This document shows, one piece after another, positions 34,666 to 41,366 of a stretch of DNA of 64,000 nt; position 1 is the stretch's first letter, and every line of letters begins with the position of its first letter. The DNA lies in NCBI RefSeq assembly GCF_012395815.1, contig NZ_JAAZQQ010000004.1:62001-126000 (forward strand), given 5' to 3'. Under the pieces are notes generated by a model. That model was not told where the DNA came from. It was given only the letters and a program-made list of their open reading frames with translations, and ran no database searches. The position numbers and the translations under genes are program-made. This stretch comes from Roseicyclus persicicus. GTDB lineage: Bacteria; Pseudomonadota; Alphaproteobacteria; Rhodobacterales; Rhodobacteraceae.

Positions 34666-35118
34666 TTACCCTTTCACCTCGATGCCCATCGACTTCGCCG
34701 AGCCGAGGATGATCTGCATGGCCGCTTCCACGTCGTTCGCGCTGAGGTCCTTCATCTTGGCCTCGGCGATCTCGCGCAGCTGGGCGGGGGTGATGGACGC
34801 GATGGTCTCGCGGCCCGGCTTGACGGCGCCCTTGGGGCGGTTCCGCTTGCCGACCGGCTTCAGGCCGGCCGCCCGCTTGAGGTACCAGGACGCCGGCGGC
34901 GTCTTGAGCTCCATCGAGAAGGACTTGTCGGAATAGTAGGTGATGAGCGTCGGCACGGGGGCGCCGGGCTCCATGTCCTGCGTCTTGGCGTTGAACGCCT
35001 TGCAGAACTCCATGATGTTGATGCCGCGCTGACCCAGGGCGGGGCCGACCGGCGGCGACGGGGTCGCCTGGCCTGCCTTGACCTGGAGCTTCATCCGTCC
35101 AGCAACTTTCTTGGCCAT
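34666..35118 (-). CDS. rplK: 50S ribosomal protein L11
   Basis: 150-residue GTPase-centre protein: [20 protein letters not shown], then [17 protein letters not shown] and the C-terminal rRNA-binding [19 protein letters not shown] 35118 chosen for homology; a longer frame is open. Stop is 3 bp before rplA. Confidence 0.97.
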
Positions 35119-35244
35119 CTGGCCATCTCCTTTCTGCCAACAGCCACGGGGCGCGCCCCTTGGCCTTGCGTTGAGGTGGTCCGGTCCGGGACTCGCGAGC
35201 CCCTCGCCTCCCACCGGGCGATGTCGTCCGGGGACGATTGCGGC

Positions 35245-35273
35245 GCTCTAGAGGTCCGCGCCGGAATTTGCAA
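35245..35273 (-). promoter_or_regulatory. Promoter of the rplK-rplA operon
   Basis: Minus-strand TTGCAA (35268-35273), 17-nt spacer, TAGAGC (35245-35250). The -10 is identical to that of the S10 promoter at 15234-15239. Confidence 0.45.
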
Positions 35274-35297
35274 GGGGCAAGGCGCGGCCGGGGCGGC

Positions 35298-36500
35298 CTA
35301 GCGCCCGCCCGGGCGGTAGGGTGGCGTGGCCATCCGGTGCCCCAGCGCCACCGGCAGCAGCGCCAGCAGCGCAAGGCCGGCGAAGGCGACGGGCAGGCTG
35401 GTGGCCTGGGCGATGAAGCCCACCACCGCGGGGCCCACCAGCATCCCGCCGTAGCCCAGCGTCGCCACGCTGGCCAGCGCGGGGCCCGGCCGCATCACCG
35501 GGTCGTTGGCGGCGCGCGAGAACACCAGCGGCATCAGGACGGCATAGCCCACCCCCACCAGCGCGAAGCCCGCCAGCGCCGCGCCGAGGCCCGGCGCCGT
35601 CAGCGCCAGCGTCATCCCGGCCGCCGCCGTCGCGCCGCTGGCCCGCGTCACCGCGACCGGGCCGAAGCGCGTCACCAGCGCCCCGCCGGCCAGCCGGGTC
35701 AGGACCATGGTGGCGCTGAACGCGGCGTAGCCCAGCGCCGCCTGCGCCTCGGTCGCGCCGATCGCGGTGGCGAGGTAGACCGCGCTCCAGTCCGCCATCG
35801 CGCCCTCGCCCACCGACGAGGCGAAGGCGACCAGCCCCACCAGCACCAGCGCCCCGGACGGCCAGGCCAGCAGCGGCGCCGCCCCGGCGGCGGGCGCGGG
35901 CGCGGCCACGCCCTTCATGCCGCGCAGGATCACGGCGAGGCACAGCGCGGCGCCACCCGCCGCCACGGCCGCGAAATGCACGGCGGGCGGCAGGCCGGCC
36001 AGCCCCGCGCCGTAGCCGCTGGCCGCGCCGAGGCCGGCGCCCAGGCTGTACATGGCGTGGAAGATCGACATCGTGCTGCGCCCCAGCCCGCGCTCGACCC
36101 GGGCGGCCCAGCCGTTCATGGCCACGTCCATCGCGCCGTGGAAGGCCCCGAACACCGCCAGCGCCACCCCCAGCCACAGCGGCGAGGGCGCCAGCGCCAC
36201 CAGCATCAGCGCCGGGCCGTAGGCCAGCGCACAGCGCAGCGCCAGCCGCTCGGCACCCCATTTCTCGGACAGGATGCCGGCGACCGGGAAACTCGCTATC
36301 GCACCGCCCGCCAGCGCCAGCAGCAGCAGCCCCAGCGCGGCCGGATCGAGGTCGAAGCGCGCCTTGAAGGCGGGCACCCGCGAGGCCCAGACCCCGAACA
36401 GGAGCCCGTTGAACAGGAACGCCGCGGCGACCGCCCGCCAGCCGGCGTCGGCCCAGAGCGCCGGCCGCGCCGCTTTCGCCCCGTCCTGCCCGCCCGCCAT
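35298..36500 (-). CDS. MFS transporter (YbjJ-like)
   Basis: 400 residues, about twelve membrane helices. FGVWASRVPAFKARFDLDPA and the following LGLLLLALAGGAIASFPVAG resemble the YbjJ branch of the major facilitator superfamily; GAFHGAMDVAMNGWAARVER is the equivalent of the central helix motif of that group. Substrate unknown. It starts only 39 bp after the nusG terminator and ends 25 bp before the rplK promoter, so its own promoter is not obvious and may lie within the nusG end. Confidence 0.8.
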   Translation of the reverse strand: MAGGQDGAKAARPALWADAGWRAVAAAFLFNGLLFGVWASRVPAFKARFDLDPAALGLLLLALAGGAIASFPVAGILSEKWGAERLALRCALAYGPALMLVALAPSPLWLGVALAVFGAFHGAMDVAMNGWAARVERGLGRSTMSIFHAMYSLGAGLGAASGYGAGLAGLPPAVHFAAVAAGGAALCLAVILRGMKGVAAPAPAAGAAPLLAWPSGALVLVGLVAFASSVGEGAMADWSAVYLATAIGATEAQAALGYAAFSATMVLTRLAGGALVTRFGPVAVTRASGATAAAGMTLALTAPGLGAALAGFALVGVGYAVLMPLVFSRAANDPVMRPGPALASVATLGYGGMLVGPAVVGFIAQATSLPVAFAGLALLALLPVALGHRMATPPYRPGGR

Positions 36501-36539
36501 GCGCCGCCCTGCCCTGCCGATCTGCCCTGTTCCACGAAA

Positions 36540-36563
36540 AACGGCACCCGCCGGGGTGCCGTT
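36540..36563 (-). terminator. Rho-independent terminator of secE-nusG
   Basis: Perfect 10-bp stem AACGGCACCC/GGGTGCCGTT with a 4-nt loop, followed by TTTCGTGG on the minus strand (five T in a row counting the stem end). Thirty-four bp after the nusG stop. Confidence 0.85.
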
Positions 36564-36597
36564 CGATACCGCCGCGCGGCGGGGCGCCGGCCCCGCG

Positions 36598-37131
36598 TCA
36601 GCCTTGCTTGGACACCTGCGTGAACTCCAGCTCCACCGGGGTCGCGCGGCCGAAGATCGAGACCGAGACCTTGAGGCGCTGGTGGTCCTCGTCGACCTCC
36701 TCGACCATGCCGTCGAAATCCTCGAACGGGCCGTCGTTGACCTTGACCTTCTCGCCGATCTCGAACGTGATCGTGGAGCGGGGCTGCGCCTCGCCCTCCT
36801 CGACGCGGTTCAGGATCGCGTTGACCTCCTCGTCGCGCATCGGCATCGGCCGGCCCTGCGGACCGAGGAAGCCGGTGACGCGCGGGATCGAGTTGATGGC
36901 GTGGTAGGCCTGGTCGGTCATCTCCATCCGCACCAGCACGTAGCCCGGCATGAAGCGGCGCGGCACGGTGACCTTCTTGCCGCGACGGATCTCGATCACG
37001 TCCTCCTCGGGGACCAGGACCTCCTCGATGACCTCTTCGAGACCCTTCTCGGCCACGGCCGTCCGGATCTGCTCGGCGATCCGCTTCTCGAAGTTAGAAA
37101 GGACGCTGACCGAATACCACCGCTTCGCCAT
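36598..37131 (-). CDS. nusG: Transcription termination/antitermination factor NusG
   Basis: 177-residue RNA polymerase-binding elongation factor that links to Rho or S10. NGN domain from MAKRWYSVSVLSNFEKRIAE through RRFMPGYVLVRMEM; C-terminal KOW domain FEIGEKVKVNDGPFEDFDGM. ATG 37131 fits the family. A strong hairpin with a T-run lies in the gap upstream (37208-37246). Confidence 0.98.
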   Translation of the reverse strand: MAKRWYSVSVLSNFEKRIAEQIRTAVAEKGLEEVIEEVLVPEEDVIEIRRGKKVTVPRRFMPGYVLVRMEMTDQAYHAINSIPRVTGFLGPQGRPMPMRDEEVNAILNRVEEGEAQPRSTITFEIGEKVKVNDGPFEDFDGMVEEVDEDHQRLKVSVSIFGRATPVELEFTQVSKQG

Positions 37132-37207
37132 CGTGATCCCGTTCCTTGCCCGGCCACCCTGCGGTGGACGATATTTCCGTTTCAGTTCAGTGCCCTGAGC
37201 GGGCCCC

Positions 37208-37246
37208 CCGAAAAACAAACAGCGTGCATCTCGACTCGATGCACGC
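37208..37246 (-). terminator. Terminator or attenuator between secE and nusG
   Basis: Nine-bp perfect stem GCGTGCATC/GATGCACGC (37222-37230 with 37238-37246), 7-nt loop, then TGTTTGTTTTTCGG on the minus strand. It lies 77 nt before nusG and downstream of a promoter candidate, so it could act as a transcription attenuator of nusG. Confidence 0.75.
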
Positions 37247-37270
37247 CATCATTTCGGGGAATTGTTCCGG

Positions 37271-37299
37271 GCCTTACCGTCCTGCCCCCGGAAAATCAA
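37271..37299 (-). promoter_or_regulatory. Promoter candidate upstream of the nusG leader hairpin
   Basis: Minus-strand TTGATT (37294-37299), 17-nt spacer, TAAGGC (37271-37276). It would give a nusG leader of about 130 nt containing the terminator-like hairpin. Confidence 0.4.
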
Positions 37300-37312
37300 G
37301 GGGCGGCGGCCG

Positions 37313-37504
37313 TCAGCCGAAGACCGTGAGGATCAGTTCCAGCCCGGTCCGGATCAGCCAGTCGATGAAGAAGAAGAAGATCGCGAAGACGATGGCCATC
37401 AGGAACACCATCGCCGTCGTCACCAGCACCTCGCGGCGGGTGGGCCACACCACCTTGGCGATCTCGGCGCGGGTCTGCTGGAGGAACTGGAACGGGTTGG
37501 CCAT
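37313..37504 (-). CDS. secE: Protein translocase subunit SecE
   Basis: 63-residue single-span protein that clamps SecY. FLQQTRAEIAKVVWPTRREV is the conserved amphipathic segment; a hydrophobic helix follows (about 28-50). Short, one-helix form typical of most bacteria. Promoter candidate 28 nt upstream. Confidence 0.96.
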   Translation of the reverse strand: MANPFQFLQQTRAEIAKVVWPTRREVLVTTAMVFLMAIVFAIFFFFIDWLIRTGLELILTVFG

Positions 37505-37531
37505 CGGTCATCTCATCTGTCGGTCGGGGCG

Positions 37532-37560
37532 CATATACGCATGTCGGGCCCGGCGCGCAA
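37532..37560 (-). promoter_or_regulatory. Promoter of secE
   Basis: Minus-strand TTGCGC (37555-37560), 17-nt spacer, TATATG (37532-37537). Confidence 0.5.
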
Positions 37561-37600
37561 GGCGGCGGGACGCCCCGGCGCCGGTCGGCGGGACGGGCCG

Positions 37601-37614
37601 TTGACCCCCGTCAA
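37601..37614. promoter_or_regulatory. FNR/DNR-type palindrome upstream of the HhH gene
   Basis: TTGACCCCCGTCAA, a perfect 5+5 dyad around a 4-nt spacer, with the TTG-N8-CAA core of FNR-family sites. Its centre is 71 bp before the HhH-gene ATG at 37679. It is the cleanest of six such sites between 37.6 and 43.9 kb. Confidence 0.55.
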
Positions 37615-37678
37615 TGCGGCGCCGCGCGGGGCGGAGGAGCCTCGCCGCAGGCGCCCCCGCGCCGGAAGAGGGGTCGGG

Positions 37679-38575
37679 ATGCCCGCGTCGGACCAGCCAC
37701 CACCCCAGCGGATCGAGGACAACGCCCGCATCGGCGCGCGGCTTGCGCGCTATGCCGACCTGCTGGAGCAGCAGGGCGCCGACGGGTTCCGCGTCCGCGC
37801 CTACCGCGCCGCCGCCGCCGAGATCGCCGCGCTGGACCGCCCGCTGGCCGAGATCTGGGGCACGGGCGGGACCGAGGCGCTGATCCGGCTGCGCGGCATC
37901 GGGCGCGGCATCGCCGCCGCCATCGCCGAGATGCTGACCACCGGGCGCTGGCGCCAGCTCGACCGGCTGGAGGGCGAGCTGACCCCCGAGCGCCTGTTCG
38001 CCACCGTGCCGGGGATCGGGCCGGTGCTGGCGCATCGGCTGGCCGACGCGCTGGACGGCGACACGCTGGAGGAGCTGGAGGCCGCGCTCCGGCTGGGCGA
38101 CGCCGAGGTGCCCGGGCTGGGGCCGCGGCGGCGGGCGGCGATCCTCGCCGCGCTGGCCCAGCGGCTGGCCCGTCTGCCCCGCGCGCGGCCGCGCCCCGGG
38201 CACCGGCCCGAGCCGCCGGTGGACCTGCTGCTGGAGGCCGACGCGCTCTACCGCCGCAAGGCCGAGGCCGGGGAGCTGCGCCGCATCGCGCCGCGCCGGT
38301 TCAACCCCACGGGCGAGGCGTGGCTGCCGATCCTGCACGCGCGCCGCGGGCCGTGGCACCTGACGCTGCTGCACTCCAACACCGCCCGCGCGCACGAGCT
38401 GGGCCGGACGCGGGACTGGGTCGTGATCTTCTACCACGAGGAGGACGAGCCCGAGCGGCAATGCACCGTGGTCACCGAAACGCAGGGGCCGCTGGCCGGG
38501 CTGCGCGTCGTCCGGGGCCGCGAGGCCGACTGCGCCGCCGTGCACGGGCGCCCGGCGGCGGAGGGCGACGGATAG
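37679..38575 (+). CDS. Helix-hairpin-helix protein related to the DNA polymerase X N-terminal domain
   Basis: 298 residues from ATG 37679 (GAGGGG just upstream). N-terminal part resembles the 8-kDa and HhH region of family X polymerases (PF14716-like): NARIGARLARYADLLEQQGA, LRGIGRGIAAAIAEML (71-86), VPGIGPVLAHRLADAL (110-125), and VPGLGPRRRAAILAAL (144-159). The polymerase palm with its catalytic aspartates is absent. Residues 200-298 form a separate conserved-looking region (LHARRGPWHLTLLHSNTARA) of unknown role. Likely a structure-recognising DNA-binding protein. It is divergent from secE. Confidence 0.72.
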   Translation: MPASDQPPPQRIEDNARIGARLARYADLLEQQGADGFRVRAYRAAAAEIAALDRPLAEIWGTGGTEALIRLRGIGRGIAAAIAEMLTTGRWRQLDRLEGELTPERLFATVPGIGPVLAHRLADALDGDTLEELEAALRLGDAEVPGLGPRRRAAILAALAQRLARLPRARPRPGHRPEPPVDLLLEADALYRRKAEAGELRRIAPRRFNPTGEAWLPILHARRGPWHLTLLHSNTARAHELGRTRDWVVIFYHEEDEPERQCTVVTETQGPLAGLRVVRGREADCAAVHGRPAAEGDG

Positions 38576-38607
38576 GGCACGGGGCGGCGACGGGCAAACG
38601 CCCCTCA

Positions 38608-39255
38608 TCAGGCGATGGTCAGGCGGTCGATCACCTCGGTCACGCCGGGCACGGCCCAGGCGGCGCGCTCGGCGCTCTGGCGCTCGCCGAGGTAGCGGAC
38701 CCGCCCCTCCAGGATCACGCGGCTGCCCTCCACCCGCACGCGGATGCGGCTTGCGTCCAGCTCCGCGTCGCGCTGCAACGCCCGCAGGATCCGGGCCGAG
38801 ACGTCATCCGGCGCGACCGCGGGGGTGAGGCGCAGGGCGTTGTCGAGGCCGGTCACGCCCGCCAGCTGCCGCACCGCGCGCTCGGCCGCGTCGGACTGGT
38901 GCCGCCAGCCGAGCGTGCCCTCGAGCGTCACCCGGCCCTGCACCACGGCGACGCGGACGGCCTCGGGCGGCAGGCCGGCGATCCAGCCCAGCAGCAGCCG
39001 CACCCGGCGGGCCAGCTCCGCATCGCCCACGGCCTCGGGGGGCTGCGGCCGGACCGCGACCCGGTCGTCGATGGCGCGGACATCGCGCAGCGACTCGACG
39101 ATCCCGATCAGGCTGTCGTGGACGGCGAGCGACGGCACGCGGCCCGTCAGGGTGACGACCCCGTCCTCCACCTCGATGGCGACGGCGGTGGCGTCGACGC
39201 CGGGCTCGAGGTCCAGTTCGTCGCGGATGTCGCGCTCCAGCTCGCGGTCCCCCAT
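38608..39255 (-). CDS. Triple BON-domain protein
   Basis: 215 residues from ATG 39255 (MGDRELERDIRDELDLEPGV). Three repeats of about 70 residues each contain the BON pattern: IEVEDGVVTLTGRVPSLAVH, VVQGRVTLEGTLGWRHQSDA and VRVEGSRVILEGRVRYLGER. BON domains bind phospholipid or act in stress tolerance (OsmY, Kbp). No signal peptide or lipobox is visible, so it is probably cytoplasmic. An FNR-like palindrome lies 66-79 bp upstream. Confidence 0.85.
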   Translation of the reverse strand: MGDRELERDIRDELDLEPGVDATAVAIEVEDGVVTLTGRVPSLAVHDSLIGIVESLRDVRAIDDRVAVRPQPPEAVGDAELARRVRLLLGWIAGLPPEAVRVAVVQGRVTLEGTLGWRHQSDAAERAVRQLAGVTGLDNALRLTPAVAPDDVSARILRALQRDAELDASRIRVRVEGSRVILEGRVRYLGERQSAERAAWAVPGVTEVIDRLTIA

Positions 39256-39320
39256 CTCGGTCCTCCCTGCGCTGCGACTGGCGCACACCGACAAGGCTAC
39301 GGCGCATCCCGCCGGGGACA

Positions 39321-39334
39321 TTGACGCCGCGCAA
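39321..39334. promoter_or_regulatory. FNR/DNR-type site upstream of the BON gene
   Basis: TTGACGCCGCGCAA (TTG-N8-CAA). On the minus strand a weak -10 (TAGCCT, 39294-39299) lies 31 nt downstream of the site centre, the spacing expected for a class II FNR-activated promoter at -41.5. Confidence 0.5.
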
Positions 39335-39364
39335 CCGGAAGGCCCGCCGCGGGCCCGGCGCCGG

Positions 39365-40171
39365 TCAGCCGTGGCAGAGCCGCAGCGCCGGCCGGTCCCC
39401 CGGCCCCGGCGCCGGGGCATCGTGCCCGGGGGCCACGCGGTCGTGCTCGGGGTCGAGCCCGGCCAGCCGGCACAGCACGTCGAGGTCGCGCACATGGTAG
39501 CGGCCGGGCCCCTCGGGCCGGACCATGTCCTTGTCGGCGAGATAGCCCAGCGTCCGGCAGATGGTCTCGACGGTGGTGTTGGTCAGGTCGGCCCAGTCCC
39601 GGCGCGAGATCGGGATGGTGAGGACGAGGCTGCCGTCGCCCTGCGGCGCGACCGGCATGATCTCGGCCGCCATGACGAGGAAGGCGATGATCCGTTCGCG
39701 GCTGGTCAGCGCGCCGCGGCGCCAGACCATCTCGAGCTGGCGGGCGGTCTGCGCGGCGGTGGCGTGCAGGATCTCGATGCGGAGCGCCGCGTCCTCGTCG
39801 GCGACGCGCCGCGCGAGGCGCGGGTCGATGGCGCAGATCTCGACATCCGTCGCCGCGGCGAGCGAGCAGGATCCCGCCGCCCCCGCCCAGTCGCCCACGA
39901 GATCGCCGGGCACCAGCAGCCCGAGGATGCTGCGCCGGCCATCCGGCATCATCCGCTCGGCCCGCAGGTAGCCCCGGCGCAGCACCCCGGTGAGGTTGGG
40001 CGCGCCGCCCTCTTCCTGCAGGGTGCGATCCTGCGGCAGCCGGCGCAGGCGCGGCCCGCCCGCCCCGTTCCCGAAGGAGGTGGCCCGGATCACCCGGCAC
40101 AGGCGACGGCTGCGCAGCGGGCAGCCGGCACACAGGTCGATGCGGGTCGTGGTCTCGAATGGCAGTGTCAC
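39365..40171 (-). CDS. Crp/Fnr-family regulator with FNR-like cluster cysteines
   Basis: 268 residues. N-terminal C14, C17 and C25 (DLCAGCPLRSRRLC) and C113 in TDVEICAIDP align with the four [4Fe-4S] ligands of E. coli FNR, with the wider x7 spacing seen in rhizobial FnrN. The cNMP-fold core is followed by the C-terminal helix-turn-helix ISRRDWADLTNTTVETICRT; E202 and R206 sit at the FNR E..(S)R positions, with the serine changed to cysteine (C205). Likely an oxygen-responsive regulator binding TTGAT-type sites. Could be named fnrN/fnrL-like, but orthology is not proven. Extra residues (about 240-268) form a Pro/Arg-rich tail. Confidence 0.82.
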   Translation of the reverse strand: MTLPFETTTRIDLCAGCPLRSRRLCRVIRATSFGNGAGGPRLRRLPQDRTLQEEGGAPNLTGVLRRGYLRAERMMPDGRRSILGLLVPGDLVGDWAGAAGSCSLAAATDVEICAIDPRLARRVADEDAALRIEILHATAAQTARQLEMVWRRGALTSRERIIAFLVMAAEIMPVAPQGDGSLVLTIPISRRDWADLTNTTVETICRTLGYLADKDMVRPEGPGRYHVRDLDVLCRLAGLDPEHDRVAPGHDAPAPGPGDRPALRLCHG

Positions 40172-40391
40172 GGTCGCGTCCTCCCCTTGCGCGCGCGGGT
40201 GTCAGCCGCCGGTTTCGGTCTCCCTCCGCCGAACGGCCCCCGCCGGCCGGGCGTGCAGCGTGCGCCCGGGCCGGGGATCCCGCCTGACCTGCCCCCCGAT
40301 GCACCCGCGGCCCACCCCACGGCAGGCCGGCGCACAGGCGCCGCCCGACGAGGGATTCGGGACTTGCGGGTTTTTCATTGCATTTCCCACA

Positions 40392-40405
40392 TTGGGCATG
40401 GTCAA
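40392..40405. promoter_or_regulatory. FNR/DNR-type site 1 in the divergent region
   Basis: TTGGGCATGGTCAA (TTG-N8-CAA); its left half overlaps the -35 of the plus-strand promoter candidate. Confidence 0.4.
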
Positions 40406-40440
40406 TAATCGGAGTTTTAATCTTTTGGCGTGCAACGGCA

Positions 40441-40454
40441 TTGATCTCGCTCAA
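40441..40454. promoter_or_regulatory. FNR/DNR-type site 2 in the divergent region
   Basis: TTGATCTCGCTCAA, nine of ten bases identical to the FNR consensus TTGAT-N4-ATCAA. Positioned for class II activation of the minus-strand regulator gene and downstream of the plus-strand promoter candidate. Confidence 0.6.
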
Positions 40455-40589
40455 GGTGGCGACGAAAGGCTGGACGGACCGGCGGGGGCTCCTGCATCCT
40501 GCATCCCGCGGCCGGACCGTCGCCCCGACCCATCGCGGGCGTGCCGCGGGGGTCGCGCGGCGCCGGACCGACAGGCAGGGAGAACCGCG

Positions 40590-41366
40590 ATGCGGAACGA
40601 CAGCGGACACGGCGCGGCGGATGCGCTGGCCACGATTCCCGAGATCGCGGACCTGCCCGACGAGATCCGGGCCGAGCTGAAGACCATCTGCCGGATCAGG
40701 CGGTTCGCCCAGGGGCAGCTGGTGACCGAGGTGGGCGACACCAACGAGATGGTCGGCTACGTGATCGACGGCATCCTGCGGATGCAGAAAACCCTGCCCG
40801 ACGGGCGCCAGCATGTCGTGGGCCTGCTGGTGGCCGGCGACATGTTCGGCCGGGTCTACGACGGGCCGTCGCCCTTCGCCATCGAGGCCGCCGCCGACAG
40901 CGAGGTCTGCGTGTTCCAGCGCGCCCGCTTCGAGGCGCTGCTGGCGCGGTTCCCGGAACTGGACCGGCTGGTCCTGCTGCATTTCCTGACCGAGCTGGAC
41001 CGCGCCCGCGACTGGATGGTCGTGCTGGCCACGCCCAAGGTGCGGGGGCGGCTGGCGGGGTTCCTGCTGATGCTGTGCACGCGCTACCGGAACGTCGGGC
41101 ACCTGTTCGGCGATGCCGACGGGCGGCTGACCATCCGCATCCCGATCGGGCGGCCCGACCTCGCGCACCTGCTGGGCGCCCGGCCCGAATCGGTCAGCCG
41201 TGCCTTCCATGCGCTGGCCGACGACGGCATCCTCGAGATCCTGCGCCCCGACCTGGTCGCGATCCGCAGCATCGAGGACCTGGCCGAGGAGGCCGGGGAG
41301 CCCGAGCTCGGCGACGGGCTGACCGTCGAGACGCTGGCGCAGGCGGCGGGCGGCGCCGGGCGCTGA
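40590..41366 (+). CDS. Crp/Fnr-family regulator without N-terminal cysteines (DNR/FixK-like)
   Basis: 258 residues from ATG 40590 (AGGGAG 8 nt upstream). Effector-domain core GYVIDGILRMQKTLPDGRQH, dimer helix, and helix-turn-helix PIGRPDLAHLLGARPESVSR with E200, S203 and R204, an exact match to the FNR-class E..SR DNA-reading residues. The N-terminal cysteine cluster is missing; single cysteines are at 34, 107 and 163. It therefore cannot be a classical Fe-S FNR. It may sense NO/haem (DNR-like) or act downstream (FixK-like). Divergent from the first regulator. Confidence 0.82.
   Translation: MRNDSGHGAADALATIPEIADLPDEIRAELKTICRIRRFAQGQLVTEVGDTNEMVGYVIDGILRMQKTLPDGRQHVVGLLVAGDMFGRVYDGPSPFAIEAAADSEVCVFQRARFEALLARFPELDRLVLLHFLTELDRARDWMVVLATPKVRGRLAGFLLMLCTRYRNVGHLFGDADGRLTIRIPIGRPDLAHLLGARPESVSRAFHALADDGILEILRPDLVAIRSIEDLAEEAGEPELGDGLTVETLAQAAGGAGR

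Follow-up and report, generated by a model that had tools for sequence, protein, structure and literature searches.

The greA leader of E. coli, from which GraL derives, has 19 nt before its terminator, and about two thirds of the transcripts are stopped there (PMC6829880). According to the available excerpt of that paper, GreA raises termination in the greA leader, directly or indirectly, and one of its section headings says that this regulation is independent of all the Nus factors. In B. subtilis, NusA stimulates termination in its own nusA leader, as described in the available portion of PMC12288461. A further system concerns the sequence GANTC, which is methylated by CcrM; GcrA binds the site once methylated and recruits RNA polymerase to it (PMC9836097, in excerpt). 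With a conserved terminator in the leader of nusG, many species would become available for testing feedback on a termination factor, and a GANTC at the tip of the hairpin raises the question of whether an RNA terminator can incorporate a site of DNA methylation. To our knowledge, little is known about the control of NusG level outside a few model bacteria, and we found no description of a nusG leader or its regulation in the open-access literature. The comparison of loci reported here indicates that nusG of the Rhodobacteraceae probably carries a promoter-proximal transcription attenuator.

The window is the whole 64,000-nt stretch analysed from Roseicyclus persicicus. In it, nusG (36598–37131, assigned from its ORF and NusG matches) and secE (37313–37504, from its ORF and locus comparison) lie on the minus strand, separated by a 181-nt gap that holds a promoter, a hairpin and a U-tract. 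The promoter, TTGATT-N17-TAAGGC, spans 37299–37271 on the minus strand, upstream of the hairpin, with its −35 element at 37294–37299 and its −10 element at 37271–37276. A stock sigma-70 scan of 35000–41000 returned no promoter at all, missing this one because TAAGGC is far from TATAAT. From the position of the −10 element, transcription is predicted to start about 7–8 nt past it, at 37263 on the minus strand. The hairpin consists of a 5′ arm, GCGTGCATC (37246–37238), an apical loop, GAGTCGA (37237–37231), and a 3′ arm, GATGCACGC (37230–37222), as read from the minus strand. The resulting terminator stem-loop (37222–37246), supported by terminator scan, fold and covariation, is followed directly by the U-tract TGTTTGTTTTT (37211–37221), found by reading and by the same scan. 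At the apex sits GAGTC (37233–37237, minus strand), an instance of the CcrM recognition sequence GANTC. The preliminary description was right to place a perfect 9-bp stem and its tail (37246–37211, minus strand) between secE and nusG, and right about its location near the gene, though the distance it gave, 77 nt, needs correcting: from the end of the U-tract to the nusG ATG (37131) there are 79 nt.

With its G+C-rich stem, short loop and U-tract directly after, the element has the sequence features of an intrinsic terminator. A stock terminator scan of 35000–41000 returned three terminator-like sites against a mean of 0.9 in shuffles, and the hairpin in the nusG leader had the most pairs. For the predicted leader of 53 nt the folding energy is −20.4 kcal/mol (z = −3.95 against dinucleotide shuffles). 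When 11 more bases are added, an outer stem, P1, appears between CCCCGAAA (37252–37259) and TTTCGGGG (37206–37213) on the minus strand, 37252–37259 pairing with 37213–37206, and the energy falls to −33.3 (z = −4.84). Because P1 requires bases past the U-tract, the full outer stem would form only in readthrough RNA. The flanks that make up P1 pair better within a genus than when swapped between genera (14.93 vs 12.44, s.d. 0.26, maximum 13.29 of 2000 swaps; 99 genera), while the next stretch downstream showed no difference between own and swapped pairing (11.11 vs 11.04). One guess is that P1 protects the 5′ end of nusG mRNA.

The order of these parts is conserved. Calling promoters by the consensus TTG-N3-N17-TA alone, we found one upstream of the hairpin in 99 of the 99 GANTC leaders tested, against 2.5% in mononucleotide shuffles, which preserve single-base content only; the hundredth GANTC leader, L122, was unassigned in this test and stands outside it. 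The same holds for 11 of 11 hairpin leaders that lack GANTC. A second promoter, downstream of the hairpin, was considered and rejected: the consensus occurs downstream of the U-tract in one of 110 leaders, which is at the chance level of 2.3%, and nowhere between hairpin and nusG in the window. The layout is thus that of a GraL- or nusA-type attenuator, with a promoter, by consensus, upstream of the terminator in 110/110 leaders and downstream in 1/110, and nusG transcripts from the conserved promoter must therefore pass the hairpin. A promoter candidate upstream of the hairpin, no convincing one between it and nusG, and obligatory readthrough had all been proposed from the window alone; the first two are upheld in the window and across the leaders, and the third is supported for transcripts from the promoter just upstream of the hairpin.

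Covariation supports the stem itself. In an alignment, A1, of 68 leaders picked for GANTC (85 candidates, reduced to 74 by removing near-identical sequences and to 68 by dropping six by hand as misplaced or odd: L023, L052, L063, L076, L079 and L087), 95.2% of the cells of the 9-bp stem are paired and eight of the nine pairs show two-sided changes. None of 500 shuffles reached any of five measures, and sliding the partners against each other destroyed the signal. Relatives thus carry the hairpin with compensatory changes, as the preliminary description had suggested checking. A covariance model built from A1 found a match (E ≤ 0.001) in 100 of 120 family genomes, a set that includes sources of A1 rows. 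The strong matches, those above 37 bits, number 79, each in a different genome. Compared by eye, 69 of them stand immediately before nusG, sharing its contig and strand; one is on a contig other than that of nusG, and for nine there is no nusG position to compare. These figures concern strong matches, and weaker ones occur several per genome in some genomes. At the level of sequence, then, the promoter, the covarying hairpin, its position and its restriction to nusG are established for the family. An element spread across the class was rejected as a candidate: 39 of 144 class genomes match at E ≤ 0.01, and the three hits of at least 47 bits are all family members. The three best other matches fetched (L245, L246 and L247) lie away from nusG. 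A multi-copy element was likewise rejected, the window's own genome having one exact match to the hairpin pattern; with up to three mismatches allowed, one strand has 20 matches and the other 41, where a reversed-pattern control has 23 and 18. No Rfam covariance model matched the nusG leader in the window or 20 related loci.

A hairpin with U-tract precedes nusG in 111 of the 125 Rhodobacteraceae genera examined, at one genome each (100 among the matches listed from 219 family genomes, plus 25 further loci), a sample that leans to NusG sequences closer to the window's and whose genera are not independent, the counts taking no account of relatedness. These divide into 100 genera with hairpin, U-tract and GANTC, 11 with hairpin and U-tract but without GANTC, and 14 without terminator, four of the hairpin leaders (L122, L173, L218 and L237) and the 14 terminator-less ones having been classed by eye. 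When hairpins were sought blind to the loop, one with GANTC was found in 85 of 105 distinct nusG upstream regions (L032 being incomplete). A NusG match was obtained in 56 of the first 61 genomes. Twelve congeners were listed, one without a NusG match, and of the 11 comparable ones five have the hairpin (L002, L003, L004, L008 and L012). The other six (L005, L006, L007, L009, L010 and L011) have a different conserved leader with neither U-tract nor terminator, built around TCTCTCCAG[T/C]C.TGTCCG.ACGGA behind the same type of promoter; it is strongly conserved around TCTCTCCAGTCGTGTCCGGACGGAGG in the secE–nusG gap. Further NusG-like matches of 24–36% identity, one or more each, occur in six congeners (G002, G003, G006, G008, G010 and G011). 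Absence of the hairpin from close relatives had been named beforehand as a result that would count against the proposal; it is absent from six of the 11 comparable congeners, but most of the family sample keeps it (111/125 genera). Because 14/125 genera and 6/11 comparable congeners do without one, the leader terminator is dispensable. Outside the family, we saw no such leader by eye in 13 readable loci, where secE ends directly before nusG or a short gap separates the two (20 loci were fetched for this comparison, 14 of them non-family, and one, L133, starts at nusG).

In the window an intrinsic terminator follows nusG at 36540–36563 on the minus strand, identified by reading and by the locus survey, and nusG is probably a single-gene unit. 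Since nusG has its own terminator there, the leader element would control nusG alone. A terminator within 110 nt after nusG was found in only 10 of 80 loci, the window's own counted, and of the 72 loci where rplK was found, 55 have it starting 103–198 nt past nusG. Outside the window, rplKA may share the control of nusG. Between nusG and rplK in the window sits an ORF of 400 aa (35298–36500, minus strand), which we take to be membrane-transporter-like.

Attenuation of nusG is well supported as a prediction from these comparisons, which suggest that cells set the level of NusG by passing only part of the transcripts. RNA polymerase would start about 7 nt past the conserved −10, and the leader, of about 53 nt in the window, would fold into the stem-loop. 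A fraction of complexes would stop at the U-tract; those remaining would read through, could form the longer stem of P1 plus hairpin, and would make nusG mRNA. We infer that the hairpin does stop transcription in vivo and that only some of the polymerases read through. Read most simply, it would be a default terminator, less than fully efficient and tuned by elongation factors. About 17 nt separate the predicted start from the stem in the window, and the fold shows only an extended terminator stem. A riboswitch or antiterminator was therefore rejected, there being no room for it and the outer stem being nested, not competing; no antiterminator or ligand pocket was seen in the leader (the folds of L140 and L172 were left out, the L140 stretch not being leader). 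Because about 17 nt is too short for a classical antiterminator, the strength of the terminator and the elongation factors probably determine how much is read through. Pairing of the loop with a downstream A-rich stretch was also rejected, as inspection by eye revealed no matching changes.

By analogy with the described systems, the purpose that we tentatively put first is negative feedback in which NusG or NusA would stimulate termination, in the sense of a leading possibility that could well be wrong. NusG is a plausible effector in that it would fit the gene; the greA precedent, with its lack of any Nus-factor effect, speaks against it. The motif of NusG-dependent pausing, TTNTTT, occurs in the U-tract of 52/99 leaders against 13% when 18 nt are shuffled, a lenient null; with shuffling confined to the 10-nt T-rich core the figures are 46/99 against 49%, with no enrichment. 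Enrichment of the pause motif was thus rejected, having vanished once T content was held fixed, and Nus-factor feedback is rated lower for this reason. The earlier proposal of attenuation, possibly by NusG, accordingly stands in part: the attenuator layout is borne out by the conserved promoter–hairpin order and the covarying stem, but the hint from TTNTTT in the U-tract fails. Otherwise, the element would be a fixed gain-setting or growth-dependent valve at nusG.

The conserved loop raises the possibility of epigenetic control at the DNA, in which a CcrM site about 27 nt past the start would let the methylation state or GcrA alter nusG transcription. Replication-set methylation or bound GcrA would change initiation or the passage of polymerase at nusG, and the hairpin would be a second, partly separate layer. 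In keeping with this, GANTC lies 51–69 nt from the −35 element in 108 of 124 promoter-bearing leaders and in none of the 124 in a control stretch at 90–108 nt, counted with the promoter giving the best motif match where several fitted; in 87 of 99 measured hairpins the distance is 57–60 nt. Among the 100 GANTC hairpins there are at least four (L023, L188, L199 and L224) in which the motif has moved into the 3′ arm. Most loops read C-GANTC-G, and the N varies (T in 76, A in 8, G in 5 and C in 0 of 89), as would suit a methylation site. Single mismatches to CGANTCG, seen in 17 leaders, mostly spare the core as well, 14 falling in the two flanking bases and three in the four core bases, but in the ten leaders with two mismatches the core is mostly broken. 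The base after GANTC is conserved in 96% of 96 GANTC hairpins, and CcrM does not need it. GANTC is also retained at its usual place in eight of 13 promoter-bearing leaders that have no terminator (L140, L158, L163, L169, L172, L174, L205 and L222; 57–59 nt from the −35 in seven), where it may be a relic.

RAMA, which we take to be the domain of CcrM, was the sole basis on which CcrM was called, Caulobacter among the controls giving a match. The window's genome encodes a single RAMA-domain protein and one clear GcrA, each scoring above its family cut-off, which favors the epigenetic account, and a RAMA match was found in 32 of 34 genomes searched. Against it, 11 genera have hairpin and U-tract but no GANTC, and among 16 genomes whose leader lacks GANTC at the usual place 15 still have the RAMA domain. 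The only two of the 34 genomes without a RAMA match are G237, which has no GANTC, and G026, whose leader has a GATTC away from the usual position. In this sample, losses of GANTC do not seem to go along with losses of CcrM. The genera counted are also not independent. We consider control of nusG through methylation or GcrA unlikely, and the open-access literature held no paper that we could find on nusG with GcrA or CcrM. The GANTC-less hairpin leaders (L025, L123, L126, L151, L167, L187, L189, L196, L212, L217 and L223) mostly have the hairpin nearer the nusG start, at 35–69 nt in eight of the 11, the median with GANTC being 88. It is as if the loop and the downstream stretch had been lost together in them.

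Alternatively, the loop may be read as RNA, either through GANUCG at the apex, where a protein or RNA partner would switch termination, or through the leader of about 53 nt acting in trans as a small RNA. No other part is as conserved as the loop, which caps a covarying stem, and this conservation holds in loop-blind hairpin picking as well as in rows picked for GANTC; moreover the architecture resembles that of GraL, which is also an sRNA. But other loops occur on the same type of stem (GTGAAA in L167, GAAA in L189 and TGT in L196), there is no known partner, and we found no open-access paper on the nusG leader, including under nusG and sRNA with Rhodobacter or Roseobacter; the main text of a study of Paracoccus sRNAs (PMC5107571) contains neither 'nusG' nor 'secE'. 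We regard a role of the RNA loop or of a trans-acting leader as doubtful. More speculative still would be a methylation-coupled attenuator, in which a CcrM site at the terminator dyad links NusG supply to chromosome replication; the link would run through hemimethylation or GcrA, termination-factor feedback would be added at the U-tract, and rplKA would perhaps be linked too where no terminator follows nusG. No open-access paper found by title or abstract describes such an arrangement of GANTC, terminator and CcrM. Last, that the hairpin is a terminator of the secE transcript, placed by chance after the nusG promoter and playing no regulatory role for nusG, is improbable: the hairpin does follow secE, whose transcripts it would also stop, but promoter and hairpin stay beside nusG in six of seven loci where secE is 0.8–2.1 kb away (in the remaining one, L060, the promoter is followed by a leader without a terminator), and the promoter–hairpin order in 110/110 leaders would be needless for a mere secE terminator.

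A promoter-proximal attenuator of nusG compares closely with the greA leader, in which a promoter, about 19 nt and an intrinsic terminator likewise precede an elongation-factor gene and GraL is the terminated leader RNA (PMC6829880, in excerpt); gene and lineage differ, feedback by GreA has been shown there, and no GANTC apex is known there. With nusA of B. subtilis it shares a Nus factor gene whose 5′ leader holds an intrinsic terminator, and feedback by stimulated termination, here proposed (available portion of PMC12288461); the effector there has been shown to be NusA, whereas for the nusG leader it is only proposed. NusG-dependent pausing at TTNTTT in B. subtilis, from the same source, offers a T-rich non-template tract with interruptions as a likeness, but TTNTTT in the nusG-leader U-tract is not above expectation from T content. 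The GcrA/CcrM promoters of Caulobacter have GANTC near a promoter of sigma-70 type, and a RAMA protein and GcrA are encoded here as well (PMC7987155 and PMC9836097, both in excerpt); the GANTC of the nusG leader differs in lying past the start, within the loop of an RNA hairpin. Two Rfam leaders score above gathering in the window, L2-Alphaproteobacteria (RF03142, 12930–12995) and Rhodo-rpoB (RF03074, 31126–31217), both on the minus strand. Like the nusG leader they belong to transcription or translation genes, and unlike them it matches no Rfam model.
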